From assembly GCF_013449685.1 (NCBI RefSeq), contig NZ_JACDSF010000016.1, positions 63,751 through 127,750 of the forward strand: a stretch of DNA of 64,000 bases, written 5' to 3'. Made by a program: the position numbers and the translations under genes. Below, piece by piece: positions 6 to 50,733 of the stretch (the first letter of the stretch is position 1; each line of letters begins with the position of its first letter). Source of the DNA: Pectobacterium brasiliense. Its GTDB lineage: Bacteria > Pseudomonadota > Gammaproteobacteria > Enterobacterales > Enterobacteriaceae. Under the pieces are notes generated by a model. The model did not search any database. It was not told the DNA's origin and saw only the letters and a list, made by a program, of their open reading frames with translations.

Positions 6-287
6 TTAGATCTCGCCCTGATTGCTGCTATCCCTCGCTTCTGCACGTATTGCGGCATCATTCAATTGCCGTGCCAGCGACGATACGCTGCTTTTATCTT
101 TTGTTGTTGATTCATTTGAGGAGACGGATGACGTCGTTTTGTTCGACGTGTTGCCTGTTACCGCAGATGAGTTTGTTTTTTCCGTATCTCTAACATCAAT
201 GCTTTTGGTGGCGGGAAGGTTATTTAAATTAATCATCTTCAGGTTTCCAGGTAGCAGGCTGATATCTGGGCGTTGTGTTCGTACCAT
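6..287 (-). CDS. Small Ser/Thr-rich protein, possibly FlgM-like or a truncated N-terminus
   Basis: The frame encodes up to 93 residues. A start at the internal Met 18 (MINLNNLP, about position 236) is equally possible and gives 76 residues. The middle is a low-complexity Ser/Thr/Asn/Lys stretch. The C-terminus (SLARQLNDAAIRAEARDSS) resembles the N-terminal helix of some FlgM-like or secreted enterobacterial proteins, in which the chain normally continues. Here it stops a few residues later, at the window edge. Past residue 88 an alternative frame reads SGRDLTH, which would fit a continued protein if one base had been lost. No function can be assigned. It may be a small regulator, an intrinsically disordered protein, or the broken 5' end of a longer gene lying left of the window. 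Confidence 0.4.
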   Translation of the reverse strand: MVRTQRPDISLLPGNLKMINLNNLPATKSIDVRDTEKTNSSAVTGNTSNKTTSSVSSNESTTKDKSSVSSLARQLNDAAIRAEARDSSNQGEI

Positions 288-750
288 AGGGCGGAATACA
301 GCGTCTGTGCACTGTAGCCATAAGATTCAGACAAACCGCGATATGGGTATTAGTATAAAATCGGCAATTGAATTAAATAACTTTAATTTTTTGTGGTTAT
401 TTTGAAATAGATTTATAGCCCATATTGATATATTTGGTGCGCTATTTTACTGAGTTTATTATTATTCAATTCCAGTGATGTTTCATTTTAATATAATTTC
501 CATGAAATTATATTCATGGCTAATGTTTTGATATGACTATTCTGAATGCGTTAAATTTTAGCGCACTGTCTCGTGGAGTTATTAGGGAAAAACATGGTGT
601 TGCAAACTTGTCACCGAAGCGTGATACCTGAAGCGTTTACTTGTAGACTGCTCGCACTATTCTCATTTTGCTACCCCACATCATTCGAGTGGTGAAAACG
701 TGTCTACACCACCGACCGATATGTGACGTACGTCGACAAAAGGATTTGCC
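288..750. other. AT-rich intergenic region between divergent genes
   Basis: No convincing gene is seen. It should hold the promoters of the minus-strand gene ending at 6 and of the plus-strand gene at 751. It contains a perfect 10-bp inverted repeat with a 5-nt loop at 490-514 and a short palindrome GACGTACGTC near 726-735. Confidence 0.6.
490..514. repeat. Perfect 10-bp inverted repeat, 5-nt spacer
   Basis: The left arm AATATAATTT (490-499) and right arm AAATTATATT (505-514) flank CCATG. Being AT-only and perfect, it could be an operator or a weak hairpin. No T-tract follows, so a terminator role is not indicated. Confidence 0.6.
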
Positions 751-1122
751 ATGTCCGCCCATTCCCCATCGTTAACGTTTTATCTGGCTATTGGCCTGCT
801 TCAGGGGCTGCTCCTCGTCGCGGCGCTGGAAATGAAAGAGGGCGCTCTTCAGGGAATGCTCATAACGATAGCGGTGGTTGGCGGCATCAGTCTGCAATGG
901 CTGGAACGCACTCTCTTTGTGAAAAAGACGTGGCTGTTGGCTGGCGAGTTGACCGTGCTGATGACCGCCATCAGCGGTTGGGTCCTCTGCGAAAATGGAC
1001 TATTCCGTCTGCTGGATTCCTGGGTGCTGTGTGGCATCCTCCTCGGCTATATCTGCTCAAGACGGTTAGGATCGGTGACCAGAATATGGAGATTACGTAT
1101 CCCTGATTCCACCCTACGTTAG
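751..1122 (+). CDS. Small multi-pass membrane protein, function unknown
   Basis: The gene encodes 123 residues and starts at an ATG preceded by AAAGGA at good spacing. Four hydrophobic segments are visible at about residues 8-27, 33-50, 61-80 and 88-105, followed by a basic tail. The start (LAIGLLQGLLLVAALE) is reminiscent of the N-terminus of DUF4153-type inner-membrane proteins, which are several times longer, so it could be a shortened derivative or an unrelated small protein. It lies about 95 bp upstream of ahpC in the same direction. An OxyR-like motif between them suggests separate transcription. I do not recognise a function. Confidence 0.6.
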   Translation: MSAHSPSLTFYLAIGLLQGLLLVAALEMKEGALQGMLITIAVVGGISLQWLERTLFVKKTWLLAGELTVLMTAISGWVLCENGLFRLLDSWVLCGILLGYICSRRLGSVTRIWRLRIPDSTLR

Positions 1123-1152
1123 GTATTACTTATTGATTCGATAAAGACAACG

Positions 1153-1169
1153 GATTGGTGATAACGATC
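1153..1169 (+). promoter_or_regulatory. Possible OxyR-type half site upstream of ahpC
   Basis: The sequence GATTGGTGATAACGATC has the imperfect dyad of OxyR half sites (ATAG.T...A.CTAT) and lies just before a plausible -10 (TACTTT near 1179). ahpC is a classical OxyR target in E. coli. The match is only partial. Confidence 0.3.
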
Positions 1170-1216
1170 ACGTTTCTGTACTTTAGCCACATGCGAAAAC
1201 ACATGAGGATAAAGTG

Positions 1217-1780
1217 ATGTCAGTAATCAATACCCAAGTTAAACCATTCAAAAACATGGCTTTCAAAGACGGTCAATTCATTGAGGTGACAGAGAAGAAC
1301 ATCGAAGGCAAATGGAGCGTGTTCTTCTTCTATCCGGCTGACTTTACGTTCGTCTGCCCGACCGAACTGGGTGATGTCGCTGACCACTACGACGAATTCC
1401 AACAGCGTGGCGTGGAAATTTACTCTGTTTCCACCGACACCCACTTCACGCACAAAGCGTGGCACAGCAGCTCTGAAACCATCGGCAAAATCAAATACAC
1501 CATGATCGGTGACCCAACGGGCCAACTGACGCGTAACTTTGAAAACATGCGCGAAGCAGAAGGTCTGGCCGATCGCGGTACATTCATCGTTGACCCACAG
1601 GGCATCATCCAGGCGGTAGAAATCACGGCGGAAGGTATTGGCCGTGATGCCTCTGACCTGCTGCGTAAAGTGAAAGCGGCGCAGTACGTGGCTTCTCACC
1701 CAGGCGAAGTGTGCCCAGCCAAGTGGAAAGAAGGCGAGGCTACGCTGGCACCGTCTCTGGATCTGGTTGGCAAAATCTAA
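1217..1780 (+). CDS. ahpC: Alkyl hydroperoxide reductase peroxiredoxin subunit AhpC
   Basis: This 187-residue typical 2-Cys peroxiredoxin reduces H2O2 and organic hydroperoxides in the cytoplasm and is recycled by AhpF. The peroxidatic Cys47 sits in [11 protein letters not shown] and the resolving Cys near 166 in GEVCPAKW. The protein is nearly identical in length and sequence to E. coli AhpC. The frame also has a GTG at 1214, but the ATG at 1217 matches the family start (MSVINT) and has GAGG upstream. ahpF follows after a hairpin that probably lowers its expression, as expected for the large excess of AhpC over AhpF. OxyR control is expected. Confidence 0.98.
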
Positions 1781-1810
1781 GCTGACACCTCGGAAAATAT
1801 GACTGTTTTG

Positions 1811-1835
1811 TCGGGTGCATTGCACCCGATTTTTC
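1811..1835 (+). terminator. Attenuating terminator between ahpC and ahpF
   Basis: The stem TCGGGTGC / GCACCCGA with loop ATT is followed by a T-tract. It lies 30 bp after the ahpC stop and before ahpF, so partial read-through is likely. Confidence 0.8.
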
Positions 1836-1909
1836 TGGCCCGGCTTTTTGGGGCCAGCACCCCCGCACGATTTTGTTTTTGTACCACCTTGCCTAATTAA
1901 GGACGACCG

Positions 1910-3472
1910 ATGCTCGACAATACGATGAAAGTCCAGTTGAAAGCCTATCTGGAAAAATTAACCAAACCTGTTGAGTTGATTGCGACTCTGGATGACTCTG
2001 CTAAATCTGCTGAAGTCAGAACCCTGCTGGCTGAGATTGCTGAGCTGTCCGATCGGGTAAGTTTTATTGAAAAGAATGACTTGGCAGTACGTAAGCCTTC
2101 ATTCCTGATTACCAATCCAGATTCCCAAAGTGGCCCGCGTTTTGCCGGTGCGCCAATGGGACACGAATTTACCTCCCTGATTCTGGCGTTATTGCAGGTG
2201 GGCGGTCATCCGTCGAAAGAAGCGAAAGAATTACTCGATCAAATCCGCCATCTTGACGGTTCATTCCACTTTGAAACGTATTACTCACTGTCCTGCCACA
2301 ACTGCCCGGACGTGGTGCAGGCGCTGAATTTAATGGCGGTCTTGAATCCAAATATCACCCATACCGCGATTGACGGCGGCGTGTTCCAGGATGAGATCCA
2401 AAGCCGTAATGTCATGGGCGTTCCGACCGTTTTCCTGAACGGCGAGCACTTTAGTCAGGGGCGCACGAGCCTGGCTGAGATTGTGACGAAAATCGATACT
2501 GGCGCGGTTGCCAAACAAGTTGAGAAGCTGAACCAACGTGACGTCTATGATGTGTTAATCATCGGTAGCGGCCCTGCGGGCGCAGCGGCGGCGGTCTATT
2601 CGGCGCGTAAAGGTATCCGCACCGGTTTGGTCGGTGAGCGTTTTGGTGGTCAGGTGCTGGATACCGTTGATATCGAAAACTACATTTCCGTTCCGAAAAC
2701 GGAAGGAGCCAAATTGGCAACTGCGCTGAAGAGCCATGTTGATGACTACGATGTTGACGTGATCGACGCGCAGAGCGCAGAAGCCCTAATTCCTGGCGGC
2801 GAACCGGGTAAACCGCATCAGGTGATTACCGTATCCGGTGCGACATTGAAAGCACGCAGTGTGATCATTGCGACCGGCGCGCGCTGGAGAAACATGAATG
2901 TACCTGGCGAAGATCAGTACCGTACGCGCGGTGTAACATACTGTCCGCACTGTGATGGTCCGCTGTTTAAAGGCAAGCACGTCGCGGTGATTGGTGGCGG
3001 AAACTCCGGTGTCGAAGCGGCTATCGATCTGGCTGGTGTGGTGAAACACGTCACGTTGCTTGAGTTTGCGCCGGAACTGAAAGCGGATTCGGTATTACAG
3101 GAGAAAGTACGTAGCTTGCCAAACGTTGACATCATCCTGAATGCGCAAACCACGGAAGTGAAAGGTGATGGACAGAAGGTGACGGGGCTGAGCTACAAAG
3201 ATCGTCTTACCGATACGGTGCATGATTTAGCGCTGGAAGGGATCTTCGTACAAATTGGCCTGCTGCCTAACACCCACTGGCTGGAAGGTACGGTAGCCAG
3301 AAACCGCATCGGTGAAATTGAGATCGATGCCAAGTGCGAAACCAGCGTGAAAGGGATCTTTGCTGCCGGCGACTGTACGACGGTGCCGTACAAGCAGATC
3401 ATTATCGCGACGGGTGAAGGCGCAAAAGCGTCCTTGAGCGCCTTTGACTACCTGATCAGAACCCGTGCATAA
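1910..3472 (+). CDS. ahpF: Alkyl hydroperoxide reductase flavoprotein subunit AhpF
   Basis: The 520-residue NADH:peroxiredoxin oxidoreductase passes electrons from NADH via FAD and two disulfide centres to AhpC. The N-terminal tandem thioredoxin-like region carries the CxxC in [10 protein letters not shown] near residue 130. The C-terminal thioredoxin-reductase-like part has the FAD motif [10 protein letters not shown] near 215, the redox pair in TYCPHCDGP near 345, the NADH site [10 protein letters not shown] and the terminal FAD motif GIFAAGDCT. Its length equals that of the enterobacterial family. It is transcribed with ahpC and followed by a clear terminator. Confidence 0.98.
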
Positions 3473-3546
3473 CGTCGGTCTGTTGAGGACGACGGCGGAT
3501 ATATTGGCCATCCTTCTGTTTCTCTGACGACGATCTTAACGTTCCA

Positions 3547-3582
3547 CGCGGCGATGCTTCATAGAAGTGTCGCTGCGTTTTT
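3547..3582 (+). terminator. Rho-independent terminator after ahpF
   Basis: The stem CGCGGCGA..CTTC / GAAG..TCGCTGCG (one G-T wobble and short bulges) is followed by TTTTTG. Confidence 0.75.
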
Positions 3583-3790
3583 GTTTTTGATCGTAAAATT
3601 TTTCTTTCGATCGTAAAAAGTAGATCTCAGCCCTTGCTAAAGGACAATAAGAAATTCATAATGCTCGCCGCTTTGTGCTGCTGCCCGTTTTTTACTGTCT
3701 ACATAGCATCCTATTTCGAGCGCAGGCGTTACCTCAATCCACATCATTTTTTATCAGTTAATACAAAAAATCATATTCTTCTTAACAGAC

Positions 3791-3799
3791 TTATCCACA
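3791..3799 (+). promoter_or_regulatory. Perfect DnaA box TTATCCACA
   Basis: It is an exact match to the high-affinity DnaA box, in a region without genes downstream of queG. Confidence 0.7.
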
Positions 3800-3951
3800 G
3801 GCTGTCGGTTGGTTATTTATTAATCGCGCTATGTTATTGATAAAATACTGTAGAGTATCTTATTGATATCTATTTATAAATTTTACTTATAAAACGCGAT
3901 AACTATCGCTTGTACTTTTTGTGACAGTTGATTGGCAACGGTTTTTTTTAT

Positions 3952-3960
3952 TTATTCACA
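3952..3960 (+). promoter_or_regulatory. DnaA box TTATTCACA
   Basis: It matches the TTATNCACA consensus in the same orientation as the box at 3791, 161 bp away, just past the 3' end of queG. Confidence 0.6.
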
Positions 3961-3997
3961 GCGCGCGCGACAAACTGATGACAAGAGTTTGAGTGGC

Positions 3998-5137
3998 TCA
4001 CGCATCACGCGGTAATCCTTTCTCGACTGCACGAATAAGTCGTTTTTTTTGTGTGGATTGGACGTCGATTCCCAGTGATGCACGACGTTCCAACTGCTGA
4101 TGAACTGCCCAGTGGATATGTTCATCCAACAGTTCGCTTTCACCCAGACGGGCTTGCAGCGCCAGTACGATACTATCCTGATAGGGGGCATTCCCCAGTG
4201 CGACGGCAATATTGCGTAGCCAGCGGAGATGGCCGATGCGCCGGATCGGCGACCCTTCCGTAATGCGCAGAAATTTCTCTTCATTCCAGCCGAATAGTGC
4301 CAGCAGCTCTGGCGTATGCAGCGCGGCACGCGGGCTAAAATCCGCCTCGTCGGTAAGTTGTGAAAACCGATTCCACGGGCAAATCAACTGACAGTCATCA
4401 CAGCCATAAATGCGATTACCCATTAGCGGACGAAATTCTTCAGGAATCGGGCCTTCCAATTCGATAGTCAGATAGGAAATGCAGCGGCGGGCATCAACGG
4501 TATAAGGTGCGACAATCGCGCCGGTTGGGCAGGTGGTCATGCAGGCGACACAGCGGCCGCACTGTTCTTCCTGTGGGCGATCGACGGGTAGGGGTAAATC
4601 GATCAGCAGTTCACCGAGAAAGAACCAGGAGCCTGCTTCTCTGTTCAGAATTAGTGAGTGTTTACCAACCCAGCCAAGCCCAGCTTTCGCAGCCAAAGGA
4701 CGTTCCATAATGGGAGCGGAATCGACAAAGGGACGAAAATTCAATTCACCGCAGTATTCCTGAATCTGGTCGCCGAGTTTTTTCAGACGTTGGCGTAATA
4801 GCTTGTGGTAATCACGACCGAGCGCATAGCGGCTAACGTAGCCGAGTTCTGGGTTTTTTAAGGTACTGGCGAATGCGGCTTTGGCTGGCAGGTAATTCAT
4901 ACGAACACTGATGACGCGCAGTGTGCCGGGCAGCAGCTCATGCGGACGCGCTCGTAACATACCGTGGCGCGCCATCCAGTCCATTTCCCCGTGGTATTGC
5001 TTATCCAGCCAGTCCTGAAGCCGAGGTTCTTCTGCGGACAAATCCGTGTCGCAGATGCCGACCTGCTGGAACCCCAATGCCTGTCCCCATTGTTTGATGT
5101 GTTGCGCTAATTCGTTGAGATCGTAGGGGTATGACAT
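3998..5137 (-). CDS. queG: Epoxyqueuosine reductase QueG
   Basis: The 379-residue cobalamin-dependent iron-sulfur enzyme carries out the last step of queuosine synthesis, reducing epoxyqueuosine to queuosine at position 34 of GUN-anticodon tRNAs. Two ferredoxin-like 4Fe-4S motifs are visible, CGRCVACMTTCPTGA near residues 193-207 and CDDCQLICPW near 247-256. A C-terminal HEAT-repeat tRNA-binding region follows (GNAPYQDSIVLALQARLGES). The length equals that of E. coli QueG. It is divergent from nnr with about 155 bp between the starts, the same arrangement as in E. coli. Confidence 0.96.
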   Translation of the reverse strand: MSYPYDLNELAQHIKQWGQALGFQQVGICDTDLSAEEPRLQDWLDKQYHGEMDWMARHGMLRARPHELLPGTLRVISVRMNYLPAKAAFASTLKNPELGYVSRYALGRDYHKLLRQRLKKLGDQIQEYCGELNFRPFVDSAPIMERPLAAKAGLGWVGKHSLILNREAGSWFFLGELLIDLPLPVDRPQEEQCGRCVACMTTCPTGAIVAPYTVDARRCISYLTIELEGPIPEEFRPLMGNRIYGCDDCQLICPWNRFSQLTDEADFSPRAALHTPELLALFGWNEEKFLRITEGSPIRRIGHLRWLRNIAVALGNAPYQDSIVLALQARLGESELLDEHIHWAVHQQLERRASLGIDVQSTQKKRLIRAVEKGLPRDA

Positions 5138-37842: not shown

Positions 37843-38544
37843 TTACTGTCCGTAATAGGCGTTCTTCCCATGTTTACGCAGGTAGTGCTTGTCTAGCAGA
37901 ACTTGCTGCATAGTGGTAATACTCGGCGTCAACTGGCGTGAAAAAATCCCCATATAGGCTATCTCTTCTAGCACCACTGCATTATGTACCGCATTGTGTG
38001 CGTCTTTACCCCAGGCGAATGGGCCGTGGGCATTGACCAATACGGCAGGAATGTCTGCCGGGCTGATACCGCGCTGGCGGAACGTTTCTATAATGACGTT
38101 GCCCGTTTCCTGCTCATAGTGCTGCGCAATTTCGTCCTGTGTCATCAATCGCGTACAGGGGATGGCACCGTAGAAATAGTCTGCATGTGTAGTGCCCCAA
38201 GCGGGTAGATCCAACCCTGCCTGGGCCCAGATGGTGGCGTGGCGCGAGTGCGTATGAACGATGCCGCCGATCTCGGTAAAAGCACGATATAGCGCTAAAT
38301 GTGTCGCCGTATCCGAAGAAGGCTTTTTGTTACCTTCGATGGTTTGCCCAGAGGCCAAATCGACCACGACCATATCATCTACGACCATATGTTCGTACTC
38401 TACGCCTGACGGTTTGATGACCACCAGACCGCGGTCACGATCCACGACGCTGACGTTACCCCAGGTGAAAGTCACGAGATTGTGACGCGGTAAATCCAGA
38501 TTCGCTTCCAGGACCTGTTGTTTGAGCTGTTGTAACGTTAGCAT
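37843..38544 (-). CDS. sgbE: L-ribulose-5-phosphate 4-epimerase (SgbE/UlaF/AraD family)
   Basis: The 233-residue zinc-dependent class II aldolase-fold epimerase converts L-ribulose 5-phosphate to D-xylulose 5-phosphate. Substrate and metal motifs are [30 protein letters not shown] (zinc His pair) and NAHGPFAWG. Its start overlaps the sgbU stop by 7 bp. It is the last gene of the yiaK operon and closes the route into the pentose phosphate pathway. Confidence 0.93.
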
Positions 38545-39398
38545 GGCATTCCCCCTTGTTGCATTTTCTGCTCGATCCAGCGGCGCGCCTGAACGATCTC
38601 GGCGACGGGTTCATCAGCTTTTTCCGTCCACATTTCAATTAGGAAAGCACCGCGATAATTGAGAGATTTCAGCGTGCTAAAAACGGAAACGAAATCCACA
38701 CAGCCTTCGCCGAATGGCACGTCGCGGAACTGTCCTGGCGAGGTTGCGGTAACGGCTAAGGTGTCTTTTAGATGGATGGCGGCGATACGATCGATACCTA
38801 GCTGTAATTCTTGCGTGACATTGTTGCCCCAGGCGCTGAGGTTGCCGACGTCTGGGTAGACGGTAAACCACGGTGAAGCCAGGCAGGCATCCCAGGCTTT
38901 CCACTTACTGATCGAGTTCATAAAGGCGGTATCCATGATCTCCACGGACAACATCACCTGCGCGGCGGCGGCACGTTCAACCGCCCATTGCATTCCTTCT
39001 GTAAAGCGAGCGAGCGTGCTTTCATCCTGTTGCTCGTAATAGACGTCATACCCAGCTAGCTGAATGGTACGGATGCCTACGTCGTTGGCCAGTTGAATGG
39101 CCTGCTCCATGATCGTAAAGGCGCGCTGGCGTAGTGCCTCGTCATGGCTGCCGAATGGAAAACGCCGATGCCCAGATAAGCACATCGAAGGGATGCGAAT
39201 GCCGGTTTCCAGCATCGCGTTGACCAACGAAAGTCGCTGCTCTTTACTCCACAGCAGGCGAGCCAGGCGTTCGTCGCTTTCGTCTACCGACATTTCAACA
39301 AAGTCAAAACCGCAGGCTTTTGCCAGCGCGAGGCGTTCTGGCCAGGTCAGGTGTTTCGGCAGGGCTTTTTCATAAATACCTAATGGGTGTTGGCGCAT
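38538..39398 (-). CDS. sgbU: L-xylulose-5-phosphate 3-epimerase (SgbU/UlaE)
   Basis: The 286-residue TIM-barrel epimerase converts L-xylulose 5-phosphate to L-ribulose 5-phosphate. Motifs seen are [50 protein letters not shown] (metal ligand) and GEGCVDFV. The start at 39398 ([12 protein letters not shown]) fits E. coli SgbU; the frame upstream overlaps sgbH and is not needed. It begins 1 bp after the sgbH stop. Confidence 0.93.
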
Positions 39399-39399
39399 A

Positions 39400-40056
39400 T
39401 TAAGTCCTCCAGATGGCGTCAATGGCGGCACGGAATTGGCGAGCCGAGTTGACTGGGTCAGGTACATCCGCCAACGCTCGTCCGGCAATGAATGCAGTGA
39501 CGGCGATATCGCTGAATAGCGGCAGATCCGCAGGGGTAATCCCCCCAGTAATAGACAGTTCCATACCGAGGTCAGAGAGGGCTTTCATCGTGTCCAAATC
39601 CTGCTGGCCCCAGGTTTGGCCGCTGGCCTGCGCATCGCGCCCACGGTGGTAAATCGCCTGTTTGATACCTAGTGCACGCCACGTTTTGGCATCTTCCAAC
39701 GTCCAGCGACCGAATAGCTCAATTTGGATCTCTCCCCGATGACGCTCAGCCACTTCCAGTGCACTGGCCATGGTGGGAAGTGGTGCTGCGCAGATCACAG
39801 TCATCCAGCTAGCGCCGTGAGAAAAGGCTTGATCCGCCAGCGTTGCGCCCGCGTCAGCGACTTTCAGATCTGCCACCAGCACATGGTGAGGGTAGCGCTC
39901 ACGCAGTTGCCTGACAGCCTGAATACCTTCGCTGATGCACAAAATGGTGCCTGCCTCGATGATGTCAACATAAGGGTGGAGTAATTCCACGGTAGTGAGG
40001 GCGGCATCCAGTCGAGTGTGGTCGAGCGCCAGTTGTAGGCGGGGTTGCGTTGTCAT
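39400..40056 (-). CDS. sgbH: 3-keto-L-gulonate-6-phosphate decarboxylase (SgbH/UlaD)
   Basis: The 218-residue member of the orotidine monophosphate decarboxylase superfamily converts 3-keto-L-gulonate 6-phosphate to L-xylulose 5-phosphate and CO2. The signature [17 protein letters not shown] carries the metal-binding Asp and Lys. [13 protein letters not shown] forms the phosphate site. It overlaps the end of lyxK by 4 bp. Confidence 0.93.
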
Positions 40057-41561
40057 GGTTTCTCCTTACCGGCGGGTTGCAGCGCTTTTAACGCGTCGAC
40101 GAGCGCCTGATAGTGTTGGTATTTTTTGTCGTAGGCTGTGCGAACGTGTTCATCTGGGGTAAGGCGTGTAATGCGTGGTGAGAGCACCCGCTGGGCGGCA
40201 GTGAAATCGCTAAAGGCACCGCTGCCGACCATCGCCGCTATCGCCGCACCAAGACAGCCGGTTTCTTCTACCTGTGGGAGTTCGACAGGCAGGCTGCTGA
40301 TGTCCGCGAACATCTGCATCCAAGGGAGAGACTTGGCAGGCCCACCAGTAATTCGTAACGCATCCACGTTAGGGAAGCGCTGACGCATACGATTCAGGTG
40401 CGCCATGTGGCAGAACACCACGCCTTCGTAAATGGCCTGAACGAGGTGCTCTCGCTGGTGGAACGCTTGCAGGCCGTAGAAGCTGGCGCTGAGCCCTAAT
40501 CCGGCGTTGGAGCCATACAAGAACGGGACAAACAGTAGGGGGCTGCCTGCTTTAGGCAGATCCGAAACCCAGCGGTTGATCTGAGCATAATCGACCTCTA
40601 AACCGTCACTCAGCCCCCATTGTTGGCAGAACCATTCCAGATTGGCGGCAGACGTAGGGCTGGCTTCATGCACGATGTAACGGCCTGCTTCCGCATGGCG
40701 GCCATACACAAAAGGATGGTCGTAGCCATCAGCGAGCGTGTCGGTGATGCCGCTGGTAACAGACCATGTTCCCATTACAGCATTGAGTCGGGTTTCGTCC
40801 TGAAGGCCTGCGCACAGAGCGGTAGAAACCACATCGAATAATCCGCCGACGACGGGGGTTCCTGCCTGTAGCCCGGTGAGCTGTGCCGCTTCTGGGGTAA
40901 TTTGGCCTGCGATATCAGCAGAACCGATAAGCGGCGGTAAAGCATCGATGATTTCTGCAATCCCGAGCTGTTTTGCTAGTTCTGGATCGTAGCGGCCCGT
41001 ATCCATGTTGTAGAGATTGGATTCGGAGATATTGGTTTCTTCACAAGCCCGTTTTCCGGTCAGGCAAAAACGCAGATAGTCGTGTGCCATGAACAACGTA
41101 CCGATTTGTGCATAGCGTGTTGGCTGGTGGTCTTTAAGCCACCGTAGTAGCGAAACCGGATGGCCTGTCCACAGCGTCTGCCGCGTCTGAGGATAAAGCA
41201 CTTGCGGTATCCCTGCCTGCTGCCATGCCAGAACCTGTTCACGTGCGCGTTGATCGGATGACAGCATCGCATTGCCTAGCGGCTTGTCATGTTTATCCAG
41301 CAAAAATAACCCTTTACCTTGGGCAGAGATCCCTACGCCAGAAATGGCGCTGGCGGGGAGTGCTGCTCTGCTCAGCAGTTCGCGAATAACCTCAGCAGCG
41401 GTCTGCCACAGGGTGTGCATGTCGCGCTCAGCCCAACCGGGTTGCGGTGTGGTAATTGGCAGATTACGACGTGCGATGCCGTACTCTGTTCCGGTGATGT
41501 CATAGATCCCTGCTTTGATAAAGGTACCGCCGCAGTCGAGCCCCAGAAAATAGTCCATCAT
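40053..41561 (-). CDS. lyxK: FGGY-family sugar kinase, L-xylulose / 3-keto-L-gulonate kinase LyxK
   Basis: The 502-residue kinase belongs to the FGGY family: N-terminal GLDCGGTFIKAG phosphate loop, ISAQGKGLFLLDKHDKPLG, and GGLFDVVSTALCAG plus the GGPAKSLPWMQM ATP region. E. coli LyxK phosphorylates L-xylulose and 3-keto-L-gulonate, which fits this operon because YiaK makes the latter. The start is MMDYFLG with two adjacent ATGs, overlapping the transporter stop by 4 bp. Confidence 0.93.
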   Translation of the reverse strand: MMDYFLGLDCGGTFIKAGIYDITGTEYGIARRNLPITTPQPGWAERDMHTLWQTAAEVIRELLSRAALPASAISGVGISAQGKGLFLLDKHDKPLGNAMLSSDQRAREQVLAWQQAGIPQVLYPQTRQTLWTGHPVSLLRWLKDHQPTRYAQIGTLFMAHDYLRFCLTGKRACEETNISESNLYNMDTGRYDPELAKQLGIAEIIDALPPLIGSADIAGQITPEAAQLTGLQAGTPVVGGLFDVVSTALCAGLQDETRLNAVMGTWSVTSGITDTLADGYDHPFVYGRHAEAGRYIVHEASPTSAANLEWFCQQWGLSDGLEVDYAQINRWVSDLPKAGSPLLFVPFLYGSNAGLGLSASFYGLQAFHQREHLVQAIYEGVVFCHMAHLNRMRQRFPNVDALRITGGPAKSLPWMQMFADISSLPVELPQVEETGCLGAAIAAMVGSGAFSDFTAAQRVLSPRITRLTPDEHVRTAYDKKYQHYQALVDALKALQPAGKEKP

Positions 41562-42859
41562 GCTGCCTCCGTAGACTCATCGCAGCGCGGTGGTAGCATC
41601 ATGGCCAGTACAGCAGCAATCGCCAGCGAGATGGCCAAACTGTAGACACCAACGTCTTTGTTAAAGGCTGAAATCAGGACGCCGACCATATAGGGGCCGC
41701 AGAAACCACCGAGATTACCGAGCGCGTTAATGACACCGCGAGCGCCGCCAGCGACGCCGGCATCAAACAGCTTGGGAGGAATGGTCCAGAACACGCCCGC
41801 AGCCGCCTGAATGAAGACGCCACAGCCGACCAGTGCGGCATAGGACCACCAGATATGGCTTTTGAGCAAGACGGACAGCGCCATGCAGATAGCAAAACAG
41901 GCGAGCGGTAATGCGACGAAGACTTTACGCTTTCCTGAGTTATCGGACAGATAAGAGATCGTGAACATGCCGATGATCGCACCGATATAAGGCAAAATAG
42001 CCAGCATGCCGACCTGTTCCATATTGCCGTTGGTTAGCCCTTTTAGAATAGTGGGTAACCACAGGGTGTAGCCGTAAATGCCTGTCTGGTAAAAGAAATT
42101 TACCAAGATTAGCTGCCACATCAACTTTTCGCGCAGTACTCGGCTTAGGGAGGCATTACGGACGGTTTTTCCTTGCAGGGCTGCTTGTTCTTCCTGTAAC
42201 GTTTTGATCAGATAATCTTTTTCTGCCTGTGAAATCCATTTCGCTTCCTGCGGGCGGTTGCTGATGGTAAACCACCACAGCAGCATAACCACCAGCGAGA
42301 ACCCTCCCTCAACCAGAAACAGCATGCGCCAATCCCAGGTTGTGATGACCCAGCCAGAAAGCGGGGCGGTCAAAATTCCGGCGATAGGCACAAACATGAT
42401 AACAATCGCGTTGGCGCGGCCACGCTCTTTATCGGGAAACCAGTTGCTGATCATGGTGAGCACCACTGGGAGCATGCCGCCTTCAGATACCCCCAGCGCA
42501 AAGCGCAAAAACAGCAACTGATACTGATTGGTCACCAGACCGGTTAACACCGAAATGACGGCCCAGGCCAGCAATGACCAGCCGATAAACTTTTTACCGT
42601 TGCCGTGTACGGCGAGTTTGCCGCCCGGCACTTGTAAAAACAGATAGCCGATGAAGAAGATCCCGCCTGCGAGTCCTGCCATTGATGCCGTAATACCCAG
42701 TTCGTCATCCATACCGCCCGGCATAGCGAAGGCAATGTTGACTCGGTCCATATAGGAAATAATGCAGGTAATCAAAATGGGCGGAACGATCCGCAACCAG
42801 CGCAATCGAGGAGTGTTTGCCGCTGTGGGCTGGCTAGAAGAAACGGTAGCTGTATTCAT
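41558..42859 (-). CDS. yiaX2: MFS transporter of the yia locus (YiaX2-like)
   Basis: This 433-residue major facilitator (anion:cation symporter subfamily) has about 12 membrane helices. The signature MDRVNIAFAMPGG is near residue 38, and a central cytoplasmic loop follows helix 6. E. coli has the YiaMNO TRAP transporter at this place. Klebsiella has an MFS gene, yiaX2, in the yiaKLX1X2PQRS operon, which this arrangement resembles without an evident yiaX1. The likely substrate is 2,3-diketo-L-gulonate or a related sugar acid (inferred). Confidence 0.85.
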   Translation of the reverse strand: MNTATVSSSQPTAANTPRLRWLRIVPPILITCIISYMDRVNIAFAMPGGMDDELGITASMAGLAGGIFFIGYLFLQVPGGKLAVHGNGKKFIGWSLLAWAVISVLTGLVTNQYQLLFLRFALGVSEGGMLPVVLTMISNWFPDKERGRANAIVIMFVPIAGILTAPLSGWVITTWDWRMLFLVEGGFSLVVMLLWWFTISNRPQEAKWISQAEKDYLIKTLQEEQAALQGKTVRNASLSRVLREKLMWQLILVNFFYQTGIYGYTLWLPTILKGLTNGNMEQVGMLAILPYIGAIIGMFTISYLSDNSGKRKVFVALPLACFAICMALSVLLKSHIWWSYAALVGCGVFIQAAAGVFWTIPPKLFDAGVAGGARGVINALGNLGGFCGPYMVGVLISAFNKDVGVYSLAISLAIAAVLAMMLPPRCDESTEAA

Positions 42860-42932
42860 ATCACTTTACCCTTCAACATGTTGCGTTCATGGCGTGCTTC
42901 ACTTTGGGCTTTTTCACGCGTAGCGATCCCCG

Positions 42933-42952
42933 CACATGCCCGCAGGCATGTG
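42933..42952. repeat. Intergenic hairpin between yiaL and the MFS gene
   Basis: CACATGCC / GGCATGTG with loop CGCA sits in the 121-bp gap. It has no T-tract. It may tune expression or mRNA stability between the enzyme and transporter parts of the operon. Confidence 0.6.
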
Positions 42953-42980
42953 TCGTGTTACATGGCAAAATCAGAAACGA

Positions 42981-44467
<1,487 letters not shown>

Positions 44468-44512: not shown

Positions 44513-44540
44513 TTTCATTATGCGAAATTGCATTTCAAAT
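44513..44540 (-). promoter_or_regulatory. Operator-like site A for YiaJ/PlaR at the yiaK promoter
   Basis: This 28-bp sequence begins TTTCATTATGCGAAA, a TTTC..GAAA dyad, followed by a second TTTCAAA. It is identical at 22 of 28 positions to the site at 49597-49624, and lies over the predicted transcription start of yiaK. Confidence 0.7.
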
Positions 44541-44542
44541 AA

Positions 44543-44571
44543 ATGCTATACCTGTACTTGCATGAAGTCAA
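44543..44571 (-). promoter_or_regulatory. Sigma-70 promoter of the yiaK operon
   Basis: On the minus strand, -35 TTGACT (44566-44571), 17-bp spacer, and -10 TAGCAT (44543-44548; an overlapping TATAGC is also possible). The predicted start is near 44536. Confidence 0.6.
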
Positions 44572-44671
44572 AACGAGAGTGTTTTAAATTTTCATTTAAA
44601 AACAGGTGGTTATTTTGATGTGGTAACTTTGTGATCGGTACCGCATTTTGGTCAGTTCGCGAAGTACAGAC

Positions 44672-44701
44672 GTGAAAAATCAGGGTGAGAGCCTCACCCT
44701 G
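44672..44701 (-). terminator. Rho-independent terminator of the ABC/SMP-30 operon
   Basis: On the minus strand a perfect stem CAGGGTGAG / CTCACCCTG with loop GCT is followed by ATTTTTC, 25 bp past the SMP-30 stop. It separates the ABC unit from the yiaK unit. Confidence 0.88.
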
Positions 44702-44725
44702 TTAGCTCCCCCCATACGCGCGGTT

Positions 44726-45571
44726 TTACCGGTACGACTCTACCCCGATACGGTAAAGTGACGTTGTTGCCGTGATGTACAGTTCATTCCCTTCTGGCCC
44801 ACCGATGGTGCAGTTGGACACGCACTCCGGTACATCAATTTTGCCGATCTGATGACCTTCGGGACTAAAAACCAGAACGCCGTCAGCGCAGCTACAAAAC
44901 AGATTGCCAGTGCGATCAACACAGAAGCCATCGGGAACGCCTGGTTCTACGCGGGCAAAAAACTGTCCCGCTCCCAGACGCTTTCCTTCCACCGGATAAA
45001 TTCGCAGATCGCGACGACCCAGTGTTGGGAAATCAATAATCGACATGTCTGCAACATATAAATATTTTTCATCTGGCGAAAAGGCCAGCCCGTTTGGGCG
45101 CTGGAGATCGCTGGCCGCGATGCTGAGTGAGCCATCGCGCGGATCGAAGCAGTAGACATAACAGCCAATGACCTGACTTTCTGATTTGTAGCCTTCGTCA
45201 TCGCTGGTAATGCCATAAGGCGGATCGGTAAACCAGATCGTGCCGTCGCTATGGATAGCCACATCGTTTGGCGAGTTGAAGCGTTTCCCGTCAATGCGGT
45301 CAACCAGGATGTGAATATCGCCATTGTGCTCACGACGGCTGATACCGCGTCGGCCATGCTCGCAGCTTACAACGCGTCCCTGCGCATCAAGTGCATTGCC
45401 GTTGGCGTAGTGGGATGGATAGCGCCAGAGCGTGACGTCGCTATTACGTGACCAGATAAACATCCGGTTTCCTTTAACATCGCTAAAGACCACAGCATCC
45501 TGTTGCGGCAACCATACTGGGCCTTCGGCCCAGATGGCGGGAGAACACAGACGCTCAAGTTGTTGTGTCAT
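44726..45571 (-). CDS. SMP-30/gluconolactonase family protein
   Basis: The 281-residue six-bladed beta-propeller hydrolase is of the regucalcin/gluconolactonase/LRE type. Likely metal ligands are Glu16 in AEGPVW, Asn in RFNSPNDVA, and Asn/Asp in RPNGLAFSPDEKYLYVAD. There is no signal peptide, so it is cytoplasmic. It follows the ABC transporter genes in one operon, 14 bp after the binding protein gene. It may open a lactone ring after import; the substrate is not known. Confidence 0.88.
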   Translation of the reverse strand: MTQQLERLCSPAIWAEGPVWLPQQDAVVFSDVKGNRMFIWSRNSDVTLWRYPSHYANGNALDAQGRVVSCEHGRRGISRREHNGDIHILVDRIDGKRFNSPNDVAIHSDGTIWFTDPPYGITSDDEGYKSESQVIGCYVYCFDPRDGSLSIAASDLQRPNGLAFSPDEKYLYVADMSIIDFPTLGRRDLRIYPVEGKRLGAGQFFARVEPGVPDGFCVDRTGNLFCSCADGVLVFSPEGHQIGKIDVPECVSNCTIGGPEGNELYITATTSLYRIGVESYR

Positions 45572-45585
45572 GTTGAGCTCTCCAC

Positions 45586-46686
45586 TTATTTCACCCCCCA
45601 GATTGCCTGATAATGGCCCTGATAATCATTTTGCGGGTCATACAGGTTGTTATTACCGCCATCGTTCGCGACGTTTTCGGCGGTCACCAAATGTGCCGGA
45701 GTGACATAGCCAGAAGGTGGTTGCTTGGCAAAGGCGCGGTTAAACTCATCCAGCAACTGCCAGCCGTGCAGCTTCAGAGGCTCAGGCACGGTGGCTGATT
45801 GGCTATCGCCGGAGCGAATACGCTGATAGGCAGAGATGGAACCATCGCCCGCCGAAATGTTGTATGGTGCGTTTTTACCGCCTTTCCCTGCTGTTTTTAA
45901 TGACGGAGCCATGAAATCAAAATACAGGTCGTTAATGGCCAGCGAATACTGGAAGCTGTCGCCGTATTTCTGCAACAGACTAAACGTCATGGCAGGCATG
46001 CGGTTTGCGGTATCGGCGAGCGGTGTATCGATGAATTCCACTACCTTGCAGCCGCTGCATTTACTGATTTCGTCTTTCATGACGTTGGCTTTATCAAGGG
46101 CGATTTGATAAAGCGAATCGGTAAAGATTAAGACATTGGCTTTTCCACCTGATTTAACGACGGCGTATTGTGCAGCAATACGGGCGACGTCATTTGAATC
46201 GGATGTCACGTTGTAGAAAATATCGTATTTAGGCAGCGGGCCAGGTTCGGGCACGGCGTGCCATGCCGTCAGAACAATGCCTTGCTGAATGGCTTTCTTG
46301 AGCGGGATTTTGGCAACGTTCGGGTTCCAGCCGCCAATCACAATGCCATCTGGCTTCTGAGCGATCGCCTGATTGAGTGAAGCCAACTGATCTTTGACCG
46401 AGCCGCCGCCGTCCAACGTTTCCAGCTTCCAGCCTGCGGCTTTGGCTGCTTCGCTTAGCCCTTGTTGCACGCCTTGAACGCCGCCATTTTTCATGTCGGA
46501 AGCAATAAAAATAATTTTCTTATTCGGTTGCAACCGCGGCCCCTGAGTTGGTCCATCCCACTGTGTGCTGCTGGCAGTCGCTTTTGCAACGGCCGCCGTT
46601 GCCTGATCGAGATAGCTGTCAGCCCACGTTGACTGGCTGCTTAATAACATGGTGGTCAGTCCTGATAACAGCAATAAACGTTTCAT
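45586..46686 (-). CDS. Sugar ABC transporter periplasmic substrate-binding protein
   Basis: The 366-residue type I periplasmic binding protein belongs to the RbsB-like Peripla_BP_4 group. The signal peptide is LLLLSGLTTMLLSSQSTWA-D near residues 4-22. A mature N-terminal extension (about 23-50) precedes the first domain (KKIIFIASDMKNGGVQGVQQ). A CSGCK segment could form a small disulfide loop. It is longer than RbsB. The gene order ATPase-permease-binding protein-lactonase is one transcription unit. The ligand is unknown. Confidence 0.88.
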   Translation of the reverse strand: MKRLLLLSGLTTMLLSSQSTWADSYLDQATAAVAKATASSTQWDGPTQGPRLQPNKKIIFIASDMKNGGVQGVQQGLSEAAKAAGWKLETLDGGGSVKDQLASLNQAIAQKPDGIVIGGWNPNVAKIPLKKAIQQGIVLTAWHAVPEPGPLPKYDIFYNVTSDSNDVARIAAQYAVVKSGGKANVLIFTDSLYQIALDKANVMKDEISKCSGCKVVEFIDTPLADTANRMPAMTFSLLQKYGDSFQYSLAINDLYFDFMAPSLKTAGKGGKNAPYNISAGDGSISAYQRIRSGDSQSATVPEPLKLHGWQLLDEFNRAFAKQPPSGYVTPAHLVTAENVANDGGNNNLYDPQNDYQGHYQAIWGVK

Positions 46687-46763
46687 AGGGGGTACTCCTG
46701 TTAGGGATGTGTCACGTTATGGTTATTGTTTTCTGGTGGCGTCTTTTTTTGATAAGAAGACTC

Positions 46764-47831
46764 CTAGTGGTGGCGCTCGGGTGTGTCAGCCTGACGGCGT
46801 TGTACGGCTTTTTGATTCAGTAAGCGACGGCGCTGGGCATAGCCTGCCAGCGTGATGGAAAGCAGCAGTGTGGCTCCGTTAAACAAGGGTTCAACCCAGA
46901 ATTCGCCGCCAAATTGCTGGATACCGGCGATGCCAATCGCAAGAATGGCGATACCGATTACTGTTCCCCAGACGTTAACTCGGCCGGGGCGAAGTGTAGT
47001 ACTGCCAAGGAATGCACCAACCAGCGCGGGCAAGAGATAATCCATACCGACGCTGGCCTGCCCGACACCTTGTTCTGCGGCGATTAACACGCCGCTAAAA
47101 CCTGTCAATACGCTTGAGACGATGAAAGCACCGATAGTAAAACGATTAACGGAAATTCCATTGAGCCGTGCTGCTGCTGGGTTGCCGCCCACGGCATACA
47201 TGCAGCGGCCAAGCGGCGTATGTTCAGTAACGAGCCATAAAACGATCGCGACAAGCAAGACATAGAAAGCCACGATAGGGATTCCACCGATCTCGGTATG
47301 GTGTAGAGCGATAAAGGCATCAGGCAGATCGCCGACGATCTGGCGGCCGCCTGAGTGCCACAGGGCTATAGCGTACAGTACGGTGCCAGAACCCAGCGTG
47401 GCGACGAAGCTATCGATATCGGCCAATGCCACCAGAATACCGTTGAGCAAGCCGTATAGCGCGGAAATGACCAGCACTGCCAGTACGGCCATCTGCCATG
47501 AGAAGCCGTATTCCACTTGAAGCGTAATTGCCAGAATGTGCCAGAGCACGATACCGAAACCGACGTTGAGATCGATTTTTCCGACGATCATAGGAATGGT
47601 CGCGGCCAGTGCCAGCAGGGCGATTTTGGCTTTGCTGGAGAGGATGGCCTGTAGCGTCAACATGGAAGCGAATGATGGCGTGGCGAGTGAAAATAGAATA
47701 ACCAGCGCGATGCACAGCAGCAGCAGGCCATAGCGGGTCAGAATTTGCATCAGCCAGGGGCCTGTACCATCTTGTGCCAGACTCACGCGTTGCTCTAGCG
47801 CCGTTGATTTTACTGATGTTTTATTAGACAT
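46764..47831 (-). CDS. Sugar ABC transporter permease (RbsC/AraH family)
   Basis: The 355-residue inner-membrane protein has about ten hydrophobic segments after a soluble N-terminus of some 30 residues. Family motifs are PMIVGKIDLNVGFG (the usual GGIDLSVG segment is altered), DSFVATLGSGTVLYA, AVGGNPAAARLNGI and the late GTVIGIAILAIGIAGIQ. It lies between the ATPase and binding-protein genes. Confidence 0.9.
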   Translation of the reverse strand: MSNKTSVKSTALEQRVSLAQDGTGPWLMQILTRYGLLLLCIALVILFSLATPSFASMLTLQAILSSKAKIALLALAATIPMIVGKIDLNVGFGIVLWHILAITLQVEYGFSWQMAVLAVLVISALYGLLNGILVALADIDSFVATLGSGTVLYAIALWHSGGRQIVGDLPDAFIALHHTEIGGIPIVAFYVLLVAIVLWLVTEHTPLGRCMYAVGGNPAAARLNGISVNRFTIGAFIVSSVLTGFSGVLIAAEQGVGQASVGMDYLLPALVGAFLGSTTLRPGRVNVWGTVIGIAILAIGIAGIQQFGGEFWVEPLFNGATLLLSITLAGYAQRRRLLNQKAVQRRQADTPERHH

Positions 47832-47918
47832 TATTTTCTTCCTTCGAACAGGTGAGGCTGTGTGAGCGTTTGAATTTTTTTACTGCTGATTCAGTTCGCC
47901 TGCGCAATAATGCGTCAT

Positions 47919-49448
47919 TCAGGCCGATGCCGTGGTTTCTCCCGCGCTGGCAGACGCCAGTTCCAATAAGTTGGCGAAAGAGACCTGCTGATTCTTGAGT
48001 TCGCCGACGACACTGCCTCGATTGAAAACCAGCGCACGGTTGCAAATGTGGGCGATCTCCTCGAAATCATTGGAGATAACCAGCACCGCGACGCCCTCTG
48101 CCAGTGACTTATTTAATAGATGGTAAATTTCGGCACGTGCACCGACATCAACGCCCGCAGTGGGATCTTCGAGGATCAGCAGCGGTGCGCCGAGATGCAT
48201 CCAGCGTGCCATCACCACTTTCTGTTGGTTGCCGCCGGACAGTGCACTAATGTCGATATTGACGTTTTTGGGGCGGACATCGAACAGTTGCACTTTCCAC
48301 CAACTTGCCCCTATCTCTTCGCGACGGCTGTAGCGGGAAAAGAGCGTGTGTCCGCTGGCGCAGGGGTTGATAAAGAGGTTCTCGCGTACGCTCATCGACA
48401 TCACCAGACTTTCATTGGTGCGATCGCCTGCGACCAGCGAGACGCCGTGAGCCATCGCCTGTTGCGGCGAACTGGCGTGGTAAGGTGCATCACGAAACTG
48501 AATTTCTCCGCTGTCGCATTGACGTAGCCCGAAGAGTAAACGACCAATTTCTTCCTGACCCGCGCCGCGCAGACCGGCCAGTGCGAGCATTTCCCCTGGT
48601 TGTAGGCTAAAGCTGACCGGTCCGATATCGCCTACGGTGACGTTTTTTACCTGGAGAACGGGGGAGGAAGGGGCAGGTAAGGGTTCACGCTGATCGCCAG
48701 GCATTGCTTCGCCCACAATCAATTGCACCAGGTCGCGCAGCGAATAATCCGCCGTTTTTCCGCCCGCAACATAGCGACCATCACGCATAACGCAGACGCG
48801 ATCGGCGATATCGATCACTTCATCCAGTCGGTGAGTGACGTAAATCATGCCAACCTTTTTCGCACGCAGTCGGTTAATCACGGAAAAAAGATGGCGGACA
48901 TCGTTTGCTGGAAGCGAAGCAGTGGGTTCATCCAGCACCAGCAGCTCGGCATTAACGGCGACGGCTCGTGCGATGGCGAGTAGTGATTTTTCTGTACGGG
49001 AGAGTTCAAATACGCGGGCATCGGGATCGAGTGCGATCCCCACATCCTGTAACGCCTGGCTGGCACGCTTACGGATCCCCCGCCAGTCAATTAATCCAAA
49101 ACGGCGTGGAAACCCCATGACCAGAGCCATGTTTTCCGCCACCGTCATCCACTCGATTAGCCCCAGATCCTGATGAATAAACGCAATAGGCTGGAGGCCA
49201 TCACTTTTTATCGCTGCGGCTGAGGCTATGCTGGTTCCACGGAATTGAATATCACCGCCATCGCGGGGGTAGACGCCCGCGAGAACTTTAATAATTGTCG
49301 ATTTCCCCGCGCCATTTTCGCCCAGCAGCGCGAGTACCTCGCCCGGCATGACCTGAAGGCTGACATCATTAACCGCAATGTTACCGCCAAAGCGTTTAGT
49401 AATGTGTCTAAGCGCAAGTATGGGTTGATCCGCATTGATTTGATTCAT
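47919..49448 (-). CDS. Sugar ABC transporter ATP-binding protein (RbsA/MglA type)
   Basis: This 509-residue protein has two fused ABC domains. Domain 1 has Walker A GENGAGKST at 43-51 and Walker B LLVLDEPTASLP; its signature region reads LSRTEKSLLAIARAV instead of the usual LSxGQ. Domain 2 has the typical degenerate P-loop GLRGAGQEEIGR, signature LSGGNQQKVVMARW, and LEDPTAGVDVGARAEIY. I prefer the ATG at 49448 to the GTG at 49472, which has no better ribosome site. The first gene of its operon, it sits 150 bp downstream of operator-like site B. Confidence 0.9.
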   Translation of the reverse strand: MNQINADQPILALRHITKRFGGNIAVNDVSLQVMPGEVLALLGENGAGKSTIIKVLAGVYPRDGGDIQFRGTSIASAAAIKSDGLQPIAFIHQDLGLIEWMTVAENMALVMGFPRRFGLIDWRGIRKRASQALQDVGIALDPDARVFELSRTEKSLLAIARAVAVNAELLVLDEPTASLPANDVRHLFSVINRLRAKKVGMIYVTHRLDEVIDIADRVCVMRDGRYVAGGKTADYSLRDLVQLIVGEAMPGDQREPLPAPSSPVLQVKNVTVGDIGPVSFSLQPGEMLALAGLRGAGQEEIGRLLFGLRQCDSGEIQFRDAPYHASSPQQAMAHGVSLVAGDRTNESLVMSMSVRENLFINPCASGHTLFSRYSRREEIGASWWKVQLFDVRPKNVNIDISALSGGNQQKVVMARWMHLGAPLLILEDPTAGVDVGARAEIYHLLNKSLAEGVAVLVISNDFEEIAHICNRALVFNRGSVVGELKNQQVSFANLLELASASAGETTASA

Positions 49449-49596
49449 GTGATGCGCCCTTGTGTTCAGCACACGCTGCGATGCGGTGCAAAATCGGTAA
49501 GTAACCTGTTCCCATTAATTCAGAGCGGATAGCGTCCTGAATGTGGTGTGGCAGGAACGAAATTAGCAATGCATTGATGTTTTAATAAACCATATA

Positions 49597-49624
49597 TTTC
49601 AATATACGAAACTTGATTTCAAAA
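49597..49624 (-). promoter_or_regulatory. Operator-like site B for YiaJ/PlaR at the ABC operon promoter
   Basis: The 28-bp sequence beginning TTTCAATATACGAAA is identical at 22 of 28 positions to site A at 44513-44540. On the minus strand its edge lies 2 bp from a TATATT -10 box (49627-49632), the same distance as at site A, so it overlaps the predicted start. Confidence 0.7.
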
Positions 49625-49632: not shown

Positions 49633-49914
49633 CCGAAGATTGCGCTAAAGCAAAGGCAAAGAGGTTTTTAATTTCTTTTAAAAACAAATAGTTATTTTTG
49701 TTGTTTCGTATTTGTGACGTACTGCTCACTTCATGGACAGCGGGAAGGTTGCGTATTCGGGGTGTCATGCCGACAATGAAACGGCGTTCCACTTCACCTC
49801 ATGCAGCCCTTGCGGTAACATCGCTATTCTTAAGAGAAATGGATGGCGGCGACACACTGCGTTGCAGCAATTTCTGCGCAAGCACTGCCCAGCCCTCGAT
49901 TCTGGAGATCAGTT

Positions 49915-50733
49915 ATGAGCCCGAAAGCTGTTAATGAGAAAGACGATCAAAAAGAGAAACCGCTGGGGAGCCAGAGTCTATTTCGTGGTTTGCAGTTGAT
50001 TGAAATTCTGAGTAATTTTCCTAACGGTTGCCCACTCGCCCATCTGTCAGAGCTGGCGGGGATGAACAAAAGCACCGTACACCGGTTGCTACAAGGATTG
50101 CACACCAGTGGCTATGTCACGCAGGCACCTTCACCCGGCAGCTATCGTCTGACGACCAAATTTATCTCTATTGGGCAGAAGGCACTGTCTTCGCTGAATA
50201 TTATCCATGTCGCATCGCCCCATCTGGTGCAATTAAACCTAGAAGTGGGAGAGACGGTAAACTTTTCCAGCCGTGAAGACGATCATGTCATTCTGATCTA
50301 CAAATTGGAGCCGACGACGGGCATGATGCGTACCCGTGCTTATATCGGCCAGCACATGCCGCTTTATTGCTCCGCCATGGGAAAAATCTTTATGGCGTAT
50401 GGTAAAAGCGATTACCCTGCGTACTATTGGCAAACTCATCAAAATACTATCCAGCCTCTCACGTGCAATACCATCACCGAGCTGCCGAAGATGTATGAAG
50501 AGCTGGAGGATATTCGTCAGAAAGGGCTGGCGATGGATCGTGAGGAAAATGAACTTGGCGTATCATGTATTGCTGCGCCAGTGTTTGATATTCAGCAGCG
50601 TGTTCCTTATGCCGTCTCGGTATCGCTACCAACAGCCAAGTTACAGCAAATCGGTATGAAATCGCTGATTAAGCCGGTCATCGCGACCGCGCAGCGTATT
50701 TCTCTGGAGCTGGGTTTTGTCACGCCCAGTTGA
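49915..50733 (+). CDS. yiaJ: IclR-family repressor YiaJ/PlaR
   Basis: The 272-residue regulator has an N-terminal winged helix (SLFRGLQLIEILSNFPNGCP, then LAHLSELAGMNKSTVHRLLQ) at about 20-75. The C-terminal IclR effector domain includes AYIGQHMPLYCSAMGK and MDREENELGVSCIAAPVFD. It is highly similar to E. coli YiaJ (PlaR), repressor of yiaK-S and regulator of plant-compound genes. The start at 49915 follows CTGGAG; the longer frame upstream is leader. Transcribed away from the ABC operon, it probably controls both catabolic units. Confidence 0.93.
   Translation: MSPKAVNEKDDQKEKPLGSQSLFRGLQLIEILSNFPNGCPLAHLSELAGMNKSTVHRLLQGLHTSGYVTQAPSPGSYRLTTKFISIGQKALSSLNIIHVASPHLVQLNLEVGETVNFSSREDDHVILIYKLEPTTGMMRTRAYIGQHMPLYCSAMGKIFMAYGKSDYPAYYWQTHQNTIQPLTCNTITELPKMYEELEDIRQKGLAMDREENELGVSCIAAPVFDIQQRVPYAVSVSLPTAKLQQIGMKSLIKPVIATAQRISLELGFVTPS

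Follow-up and report, generated by a model that had tools for sequence, protein, structure and literature searches.

Organization of the yia locus in Pectobacterium brasiliense

The window analyzed here is a 64,000-nucleotide stretch of the Pectobacterium brasiliense genome (positions 63,751 to 127,750 of contig NZ_JACDSF010000016.1, forward strand). It carries an IclR-family regulator gene of the YiaJ/PlaR type beside two operons, each preceded by one of two near-identical predicted operators, which are the subject of this study. The regulator gene (49915–50733, plus strand; an in-frame ATG also occurs at 49843) encodes a protein with the Pfam domains IclR_C and HTH_IclR and adjoins the yia genes. 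It faces a minus-strand operon that begins with an ATP-binding cassette (ABC) sugar-transporter ATPase (47919–49472, starting at GTG 49472 or ATG 49447), followed by an ABC permease (46764–47831), a periplasmic binding protein (Peripla_BP_4; 45586–46686) and an SMP-30/gluconolactonase-family protein (Pfam SGL; 44726–45571) whose nearest solved relatives are named gluconolactonases. The minus-strand yia operon comes next. Its first gene, yiaK (43469–44467), matches the NCBIfam model for 3-dehydro-L-gulonate 2-dehydrogenase above the cutoff, and the rest of the operon (37843–43493) comprises yiaL, an MFS permease, a lyxK-like kinase and ulaD-, ulaE- and ulaF-like genes, with the names lyxK, ulaD and ulaE assigned from position and similarity to E. 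coli genes.

A terminator-like hairpin lies after the SMP-30 gene (44681–44701, minus strand), with nine pairs followed by ATTTTTC. The scan found one such hairpin where 0.4 were expected, and the RNA fold has a z score of −1.96, with 10 of 200 shuffled sequences folding equally well. In a rough scan of relatives, the hairpin was present in 17 of 30 loci with a long gap between the SMP-30 gene and yiaK, and in none of the six with a short gap. Given the hairpin, the ABC/SMP-30 and yiaK operons are probably separate transcripts.

Two predicted operators with three half-sites

The initial annotation described near-identical operators at 44513–44540 and 49597–49624, one preceding yiaK and the other preceding the ABC/SMP-30 operon beside the IclR gene yiaJ. 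This is indeed where they lie, both reading on the minus strand, and they are identical at 22 of 28 bases. A degenerate 27-mer derived from them matches the window only at these two sites when up to three mismatches are allowed, and has no match in any of 100 shuffled windows. The genome scan that had been suggested as a check, run with the 27-bp pattern at up to three mismatches, likewise returned only these two places in the 4.67-Mb genome of the same strain, where a backward control pattern had no match.

Both sites consist of three half-sites in alternating direction, all of them conserved. At yiaK these are, on the plus strand, TTTC (44513–44516), GAAA (44524–44527) and TTTC (44533–44536); the predicted ABC operator has the same three at 49597–49600, 49608–49611 and 49617–49620. 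When promoter classes of different genera are compared, the boxes agree at 81–97%, the spacers at 17–67% and the flanks at 28–35%. Since it is the boxes that agree, rather than the spacers or flanks, the operator can be written as TTTC-N7-GAAA-N5-TTTC. The published E. coli PlaR box spans two of the three half-sites (PMC6958661); by sequence comparison, the predicted three-box operator is longer than that box, which corresponds to the right-hand palindrome only. In the IclR family, 32 groups of proteins have predicted three-box sites, and PcaU requires the third box (PMC8222616). The sites described here resemble these in having alternating half-sites with one pair of each consensus type, and differ in that the YiaJ-type half-sites are TTTC/GAAA with spacers of 7 and 5. 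Three half-sites would allow the regulator to pair in two ways, or to bind as more than one dimer.

Position of the predicted operators at the two promoters

The yiaK operator lies next to a promoter-like sequence, TTGACT-17-TAGCAT (44543–44571, minus strand), recovered by a promoter scan that found two matches in the stretch where 0.6 were expected. The −10 element of this match occupies 44548–44543, 2 bp from the operator. The same scan found no match at the ABC operon (0 found, 0.8 expected), so the probable −10 there, TATATT (49632–49627, minus strand), is placed by its position and by alignment with relatives. It has no good −35; as read from the sequence, it also lies 2 bp from the operator. 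The proposal that each site sits 2 bp from its −10 is thus borne out, by a scan match at yiaK and by position and alignment at the ABC operon. The further proposal of identical geometry holds to within 2 bp: the sequence GGTATA, common to both promoters, is 5 bp from the operator at one and 7 bp at the other. The operator adjoins or overlaps the promoter in each case, with the yiaK scan match ending 2 bp away and the overlap at the ABC operon judged by position only. Both sites are predicted to cover the transcription start, as placed from the −10 elements.

This position bears on whether the regulator represses or activates. Some IclR-family members are activators, and others can act in both ways (PMC8222616). 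The window regulator might thus activate one or both promoters, a reading favored by the lack of a good −35 at the ABC promoter. However, an operator at and downstream of the predicted start, as found at both promoters, is in the position of a repressor site. Moreover, E. coli PlaR represses yiaK: its box overlaps the yiaK promoter, and yiaK expression is raised in a plaR mutant (PMC6958661). Activation at one or both promoters is very unlikely, and repression is the reading adopted below.

The resemblance between the two window promoters extends past the operator into the DNA upstream. The upstream-only likeness scores 65, with a maximum of 40 in 2000 shuffles and a maximum of 39 against 132 intergenic stretches read both ways (264 oriented sequences). 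A copied promoter is the simplest origin for the window pair. It could be argued from this that recent copying alone makes the two sites resemble each other, and that one operon has a copy that regulates nothing. Against this, the upstream likeness is weaker in relatives (18–59 in 30 loci) while the sites persist, and the boxes agree far better than the flanks when promoter classes are compared across genera, which indicates that the operator has been kept by selection at both operons. A copy without regulatory function is very improbable indeed.

About 100 bp upstream of each predicted start, on the minus strand, lies a sequence resembling the CRP site TGTGA-N6-TCACA: TGCGG-N6-TCACA at yiaK (44630–44645) and TGAGC-N6-TCACA at the ABC operon (49713–49728). 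Each matches at 8 of 10 positions by hand count, and the sequences are conserved in an alignment of 27 promoters. E. coli yiaK is reportedly under CRP control, according to one paper. CRP probably activates both promoters from this distance.

Comparison with E. coli PlaR

The window regulator is 75% identical to E. coli PlaR over 265 residues, and 99% identical to the corresponding regulator of Pectobacterium polonicum. The spacer between plaR (yiaJ) and yiaK in E. coli K-12 holds the same 27-mer, matching the ABC site at 26 of 27 positions and the yiaK site at 23 of 27. This spacer is the strongest PlaR target in E. coli, and L-ascorbate and galacturonate release the protein from DNA (PMC6958661). 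The two systems are thus alike in regulator, operator, promoter position and first gene, yiaK. They differ in that E. coli yiaJ faces yiaK directly, with one operator found there and no ABC/SMP-30 operon between, whereas P. brasiliense has two operators for two operons and a regulator from a sister clade.

In a tree of 84 sequences, the window regulator falls in a clade of 39, of which 35 are accompanied by the ABC operon; the opposite clade of 45, which includes E. coli PlaR, has the operon in five. Presence of the ABC operon requires six changes on this tree, at least five of them forced by well-supported branches. Judged from this phylogeny, the association of the ABC operon with the regulator is one that has been gained or lost several times.

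Conservation of the operators across relatives

Conservation was assessed in 80 named loci that carry a relative of the window regulator. In 39 of these yiaJ faces yiaK, and in 36 yiaJ is accompanied by both the ABC operon and yiaK; three have the ABC operon with no yiaK nearby, and two have neither on the stretch. A profile built from all 61 distinct sites gives a score of at least 22 in 79 of the 80 loci, at a site upstream of yiaJ that lies toward the operon it faces, and reaches at most 10.9 over the 3.17 million positions that remain once the two promoter regions are set apart. This profile was trained on the same sites that it scores; a second profile, drawn up from just the 15 distinct E. 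coli-type sites, provides a fairer test. By this E. coli-type profile, the two window sites ranked first and second at 36.4 and 34.9, and the next match scored 8.9. The ABC-promoter site was first or second in all 39 other ABC loci (20.7–47.2). The yiaK site scored at least 14.2 and took one of the first two places in 30 of 36 loci; the best unrelated match in these loci scored 15.5. At yiaK, five of the other six loci carry the three boxes in a weaker GGAA variant, with scores of 3.0–15.2 for loci L116, L132, L135 and L145 and 2.1 for L122; in the sixth, Yersinia massiliensis, no second operator was found. Three further relatives score 31.9, 39.4 and 25.2, the last of these on the opposite strand. 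By a strict count, six loci with a short gap between the SMP-30 gene and yiaK had been listed as having no second operator; five of them carry the GGAA form, and that count was dropped.

Genome-wide scans covered 49 and then 11 of the 80 named genomes. In the 49, a relaxed pattern with at most one mismatch gave 75 matches and the backward control three. Coordinates compared by eye place 72 of the 75 in a yia locus; of the other three, one falls on a different contig of a fragmented assembly and two belong to a second yia locus that Klebsiella indica carries. Ten of the 11 further genomes had a match at up to two mismatches (control, three). An order-wide scan at up to three mismatches, in which 48 of 295 genomes had a match, was mostly noise, with the control hitting dozens of genomes, and was set aside. 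Ten of the 25 Pectobacterium genomes carry exactly two sites, and yiaJ, yiaK and the gene for the ABC binding protein are found in these same 10; among the other 15 there is one single match, at three mismatches, and 14 genomes have none.

Variant loci

The locus differs in several relatives. Two species of Rouxiella keep yiaJ, the ABC operon and its site, and have no yiaK in the genome at an E-value of 1e-60. In Rouxiella badensis (L105), yiaJ-ABC-SMP-30 adjoins another ABC system for sugars and a gene resembling sugar isomerases/epimerases (3704–4720 and 25–3620), which stand in place of yiaK; these neighboring genes may hint at another substrate for the ABC/SMP-30 operon. In Dickeya oryzae (L137, 9860–10801), a yiaJ relative is found with neither operon and no site. 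It is followed by SIMPL-type, argP-like and rpiA-like genes, recognized from their translations, as in the P. brasiliense window, and looks like an orphan regulator.

In two other cases the transporter differs. The second yia locus of K. indica (L221) has operators at 8754 and 12378, scoring 39.7 and 39.2, one at yiaK and the other in front of an operon that encodes a GPH-type symporter and an SMP-30 protein. The yia cluster of Pantoea sp. 1.19 has an SMP-30 gene beside yiaJ and no ABC or MFS match within the cluster. An unlinked site in this strain (L188:9015-9041; score 36.7) precedes a symporter gene (PF13347) whose product is 72% identical to the K. indica GPH-type symporter. These two cases indicate, on sequence grounds, that the operator accompanies the lactonase and a transporter even when the transporter family changes.

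Prodigiosinella confusarubida has the two operons at two places (L110 and L189), each with its own YiaJ paralogue and its own site. This species had been considered as proof that one regulator acts at two distant places, and was dropped in that role because a paralogue is present at each. Cross-control between the paralogues is possible.

The question of KdgR

A second IclR-family protein has to be considered as the binder of these sites. KdgR, the repressor of the pectin pathway, could be the main one, with the likeness to a PlaR operator arising from the similarity of the boxes. KdgR and PlaR boxes are indeed similar, and the two proteins have some E. coli targets in common (PMC6958661); the core of the window sites, GAAA-N5-TTTC, is a palindrome of the KdgR kind, resembling the GAAAC-N3-GTTTC of pectinolytic enterobacteria. 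KdgR-like sequences are also frequent in the P. brasiliense genome, with 147 matches at up to three mismatches against 46 for a backward control. However, the two window sites depart at 6 and 7 positions from a mildly relaxed version of the KdgR consensus given in PMC8222616. None of 14 KdgR-like boxes, which occur in 12 of the 20 loci inspected in this genome, has a third half-site at the spacing seen here. In addition, yiaK is absent from the E. coli genes that PMC6958661 reports as upregulated in a kdgR mutant. That KdgR is the main binder is thus unlikely, although a shade less so than activation by YiaJ itself.

A KdgR-like, or more generally IclR-type, box, TGAAACGGCGTTCC, lies between the ABC promoter and yiaJ (49777–49790, plus strand) with three mismatches. 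It is conserved, and boxes of this kind occur in 24 of the 36 loci with both the ABC operon and yiaK (in locus L089 in a different form and place), in one of three loci with the ABC operon only, in one of the two others, and in none of the 39 in which yiaJ and yiaK face each other. Loss of KdgR raises plaR mRNA in E. coli (PMC6958661). The box may let KdgR, or YiaJ itself, control yiaJ, and the pathway may be connected with the sensing of pectin.

A probable common regulator for two operons

Taken together, the data argue strongly that both sites are operators of the YiaJ/PlaR-type regulator encoded at 49915, and that this protein very probably represses both operons. The sites, their conservation and position, and their link to yiaJ were computed here; binding, repression and ligands are known from E. 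coli. The initial annotation had predicted a YiaJ/PlaR operator and had joined the ABC operon and the yia pathway in one regulon. The comparison lends support to the first prediction through the E. coli 27-mer, the linkage to yiaJ and the conserved position of the sites, and to the second through the comparison across relatives.

Several observations weigh against this interpretation. yiaJ, the operons and the sites form one linked cluster, and co-occurrence alone therefore does not name the binder. The window regulator belongs to the sister clade of E. coli PlaR rather than to PlaR's own. The printed PlaR consensus, ATnTGAAACnnnGTTCAnTT, is a loose and non-discriminating guide: the window sites differ from it at 6 and 5 positions, and the yiaK site of E. 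coli itself at 5. E. coli PlaR has been reported at 18 spacers (PMC6958661), and the P. brasiliense genome has two such sites. In many Erwinia and Pantoea loci the site on the yiaK side is weaker; it takes the GGAA form in the five loci noted above, and in Yersinia massiliensis (L089) it was not found by a profile scan of the locus. Prodigiosinella has two YiaJ paralogues, one per operon. Finally, the binding and expression results come from E. coli, and the substrate step discussed below is a proposal.

Under the proposed mechanism, in the absence of inducer the regulator would sit on each operator, over the start and just downstream of the −10, and both operons would be blocked. An inducer would release it; for the E. 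coli protein, this is L-ascorbate or galacturonate (PMC6958661). CRP would activate both promoters from the putative upstream sites. The ABC transporter would import, and the SMP-30 lactonase would open, a lactone, perhaps dehydroascorbate. The opened lactone would join the pathway at 2,3-diketo-L-gulonate, the substrate of YiaK, and the yia operon, judged by its enzymes, converts this compound to pentose phosphate. Import and opening of a lactone are proposed because the SMP-30 protein is closest to solved gluconolactonases, and this is probably the role of the ABC/SMP-30 operon.

A broader and more tentative proposal treats the three-box YiaJ operator as the mark of an interchangeable module of uptake system and lactonase. 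The lactonase would open dehydroascorbate, or some related lactone of plant origin, to 2,3-diketo-L-gulonate, and the KdgR-like box beside yiaJ would place the pathway under the pectin regulator. The module would take the form of ABC transporter plus SMP-30 in Pectobacterium, Serratia, Erwinia and Pantoea, and of GPH-type symporter plus SMP-30 in K. indica; in Pantoea sp. 1.19, the SMP-30 gene is beside yiaJ and the symporter is elsewhere in the genome. The same predicted operator precedes each of these. The proposal is less likely than not to hold.

Implications

No paper recognizably on this ABC operon came up in literature searches, and an earlier prediction may exist in RegPrecise, which holds YiaJ predictions, or in the supplementary tables of PMC8222616. 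The analysis yields a precise predicted operator for the YiaJ/PlaR group, specific enough by itself to find members of the regulon, as the 72 of 75 relaxed-pattern matches in a yia locus indicate. For soft-rot bacteria and their relatives, it ties an uncharacterized ABC transporter and an SMP-30 lactonase to sugar-acid breakdown of the ascorbate type. Where a species has no ABC genes at the locus, a further transporter for the same pathway is predicted. If the module proposed here is real, it would give plant-associated bacteria a regulated route into vitamin C.

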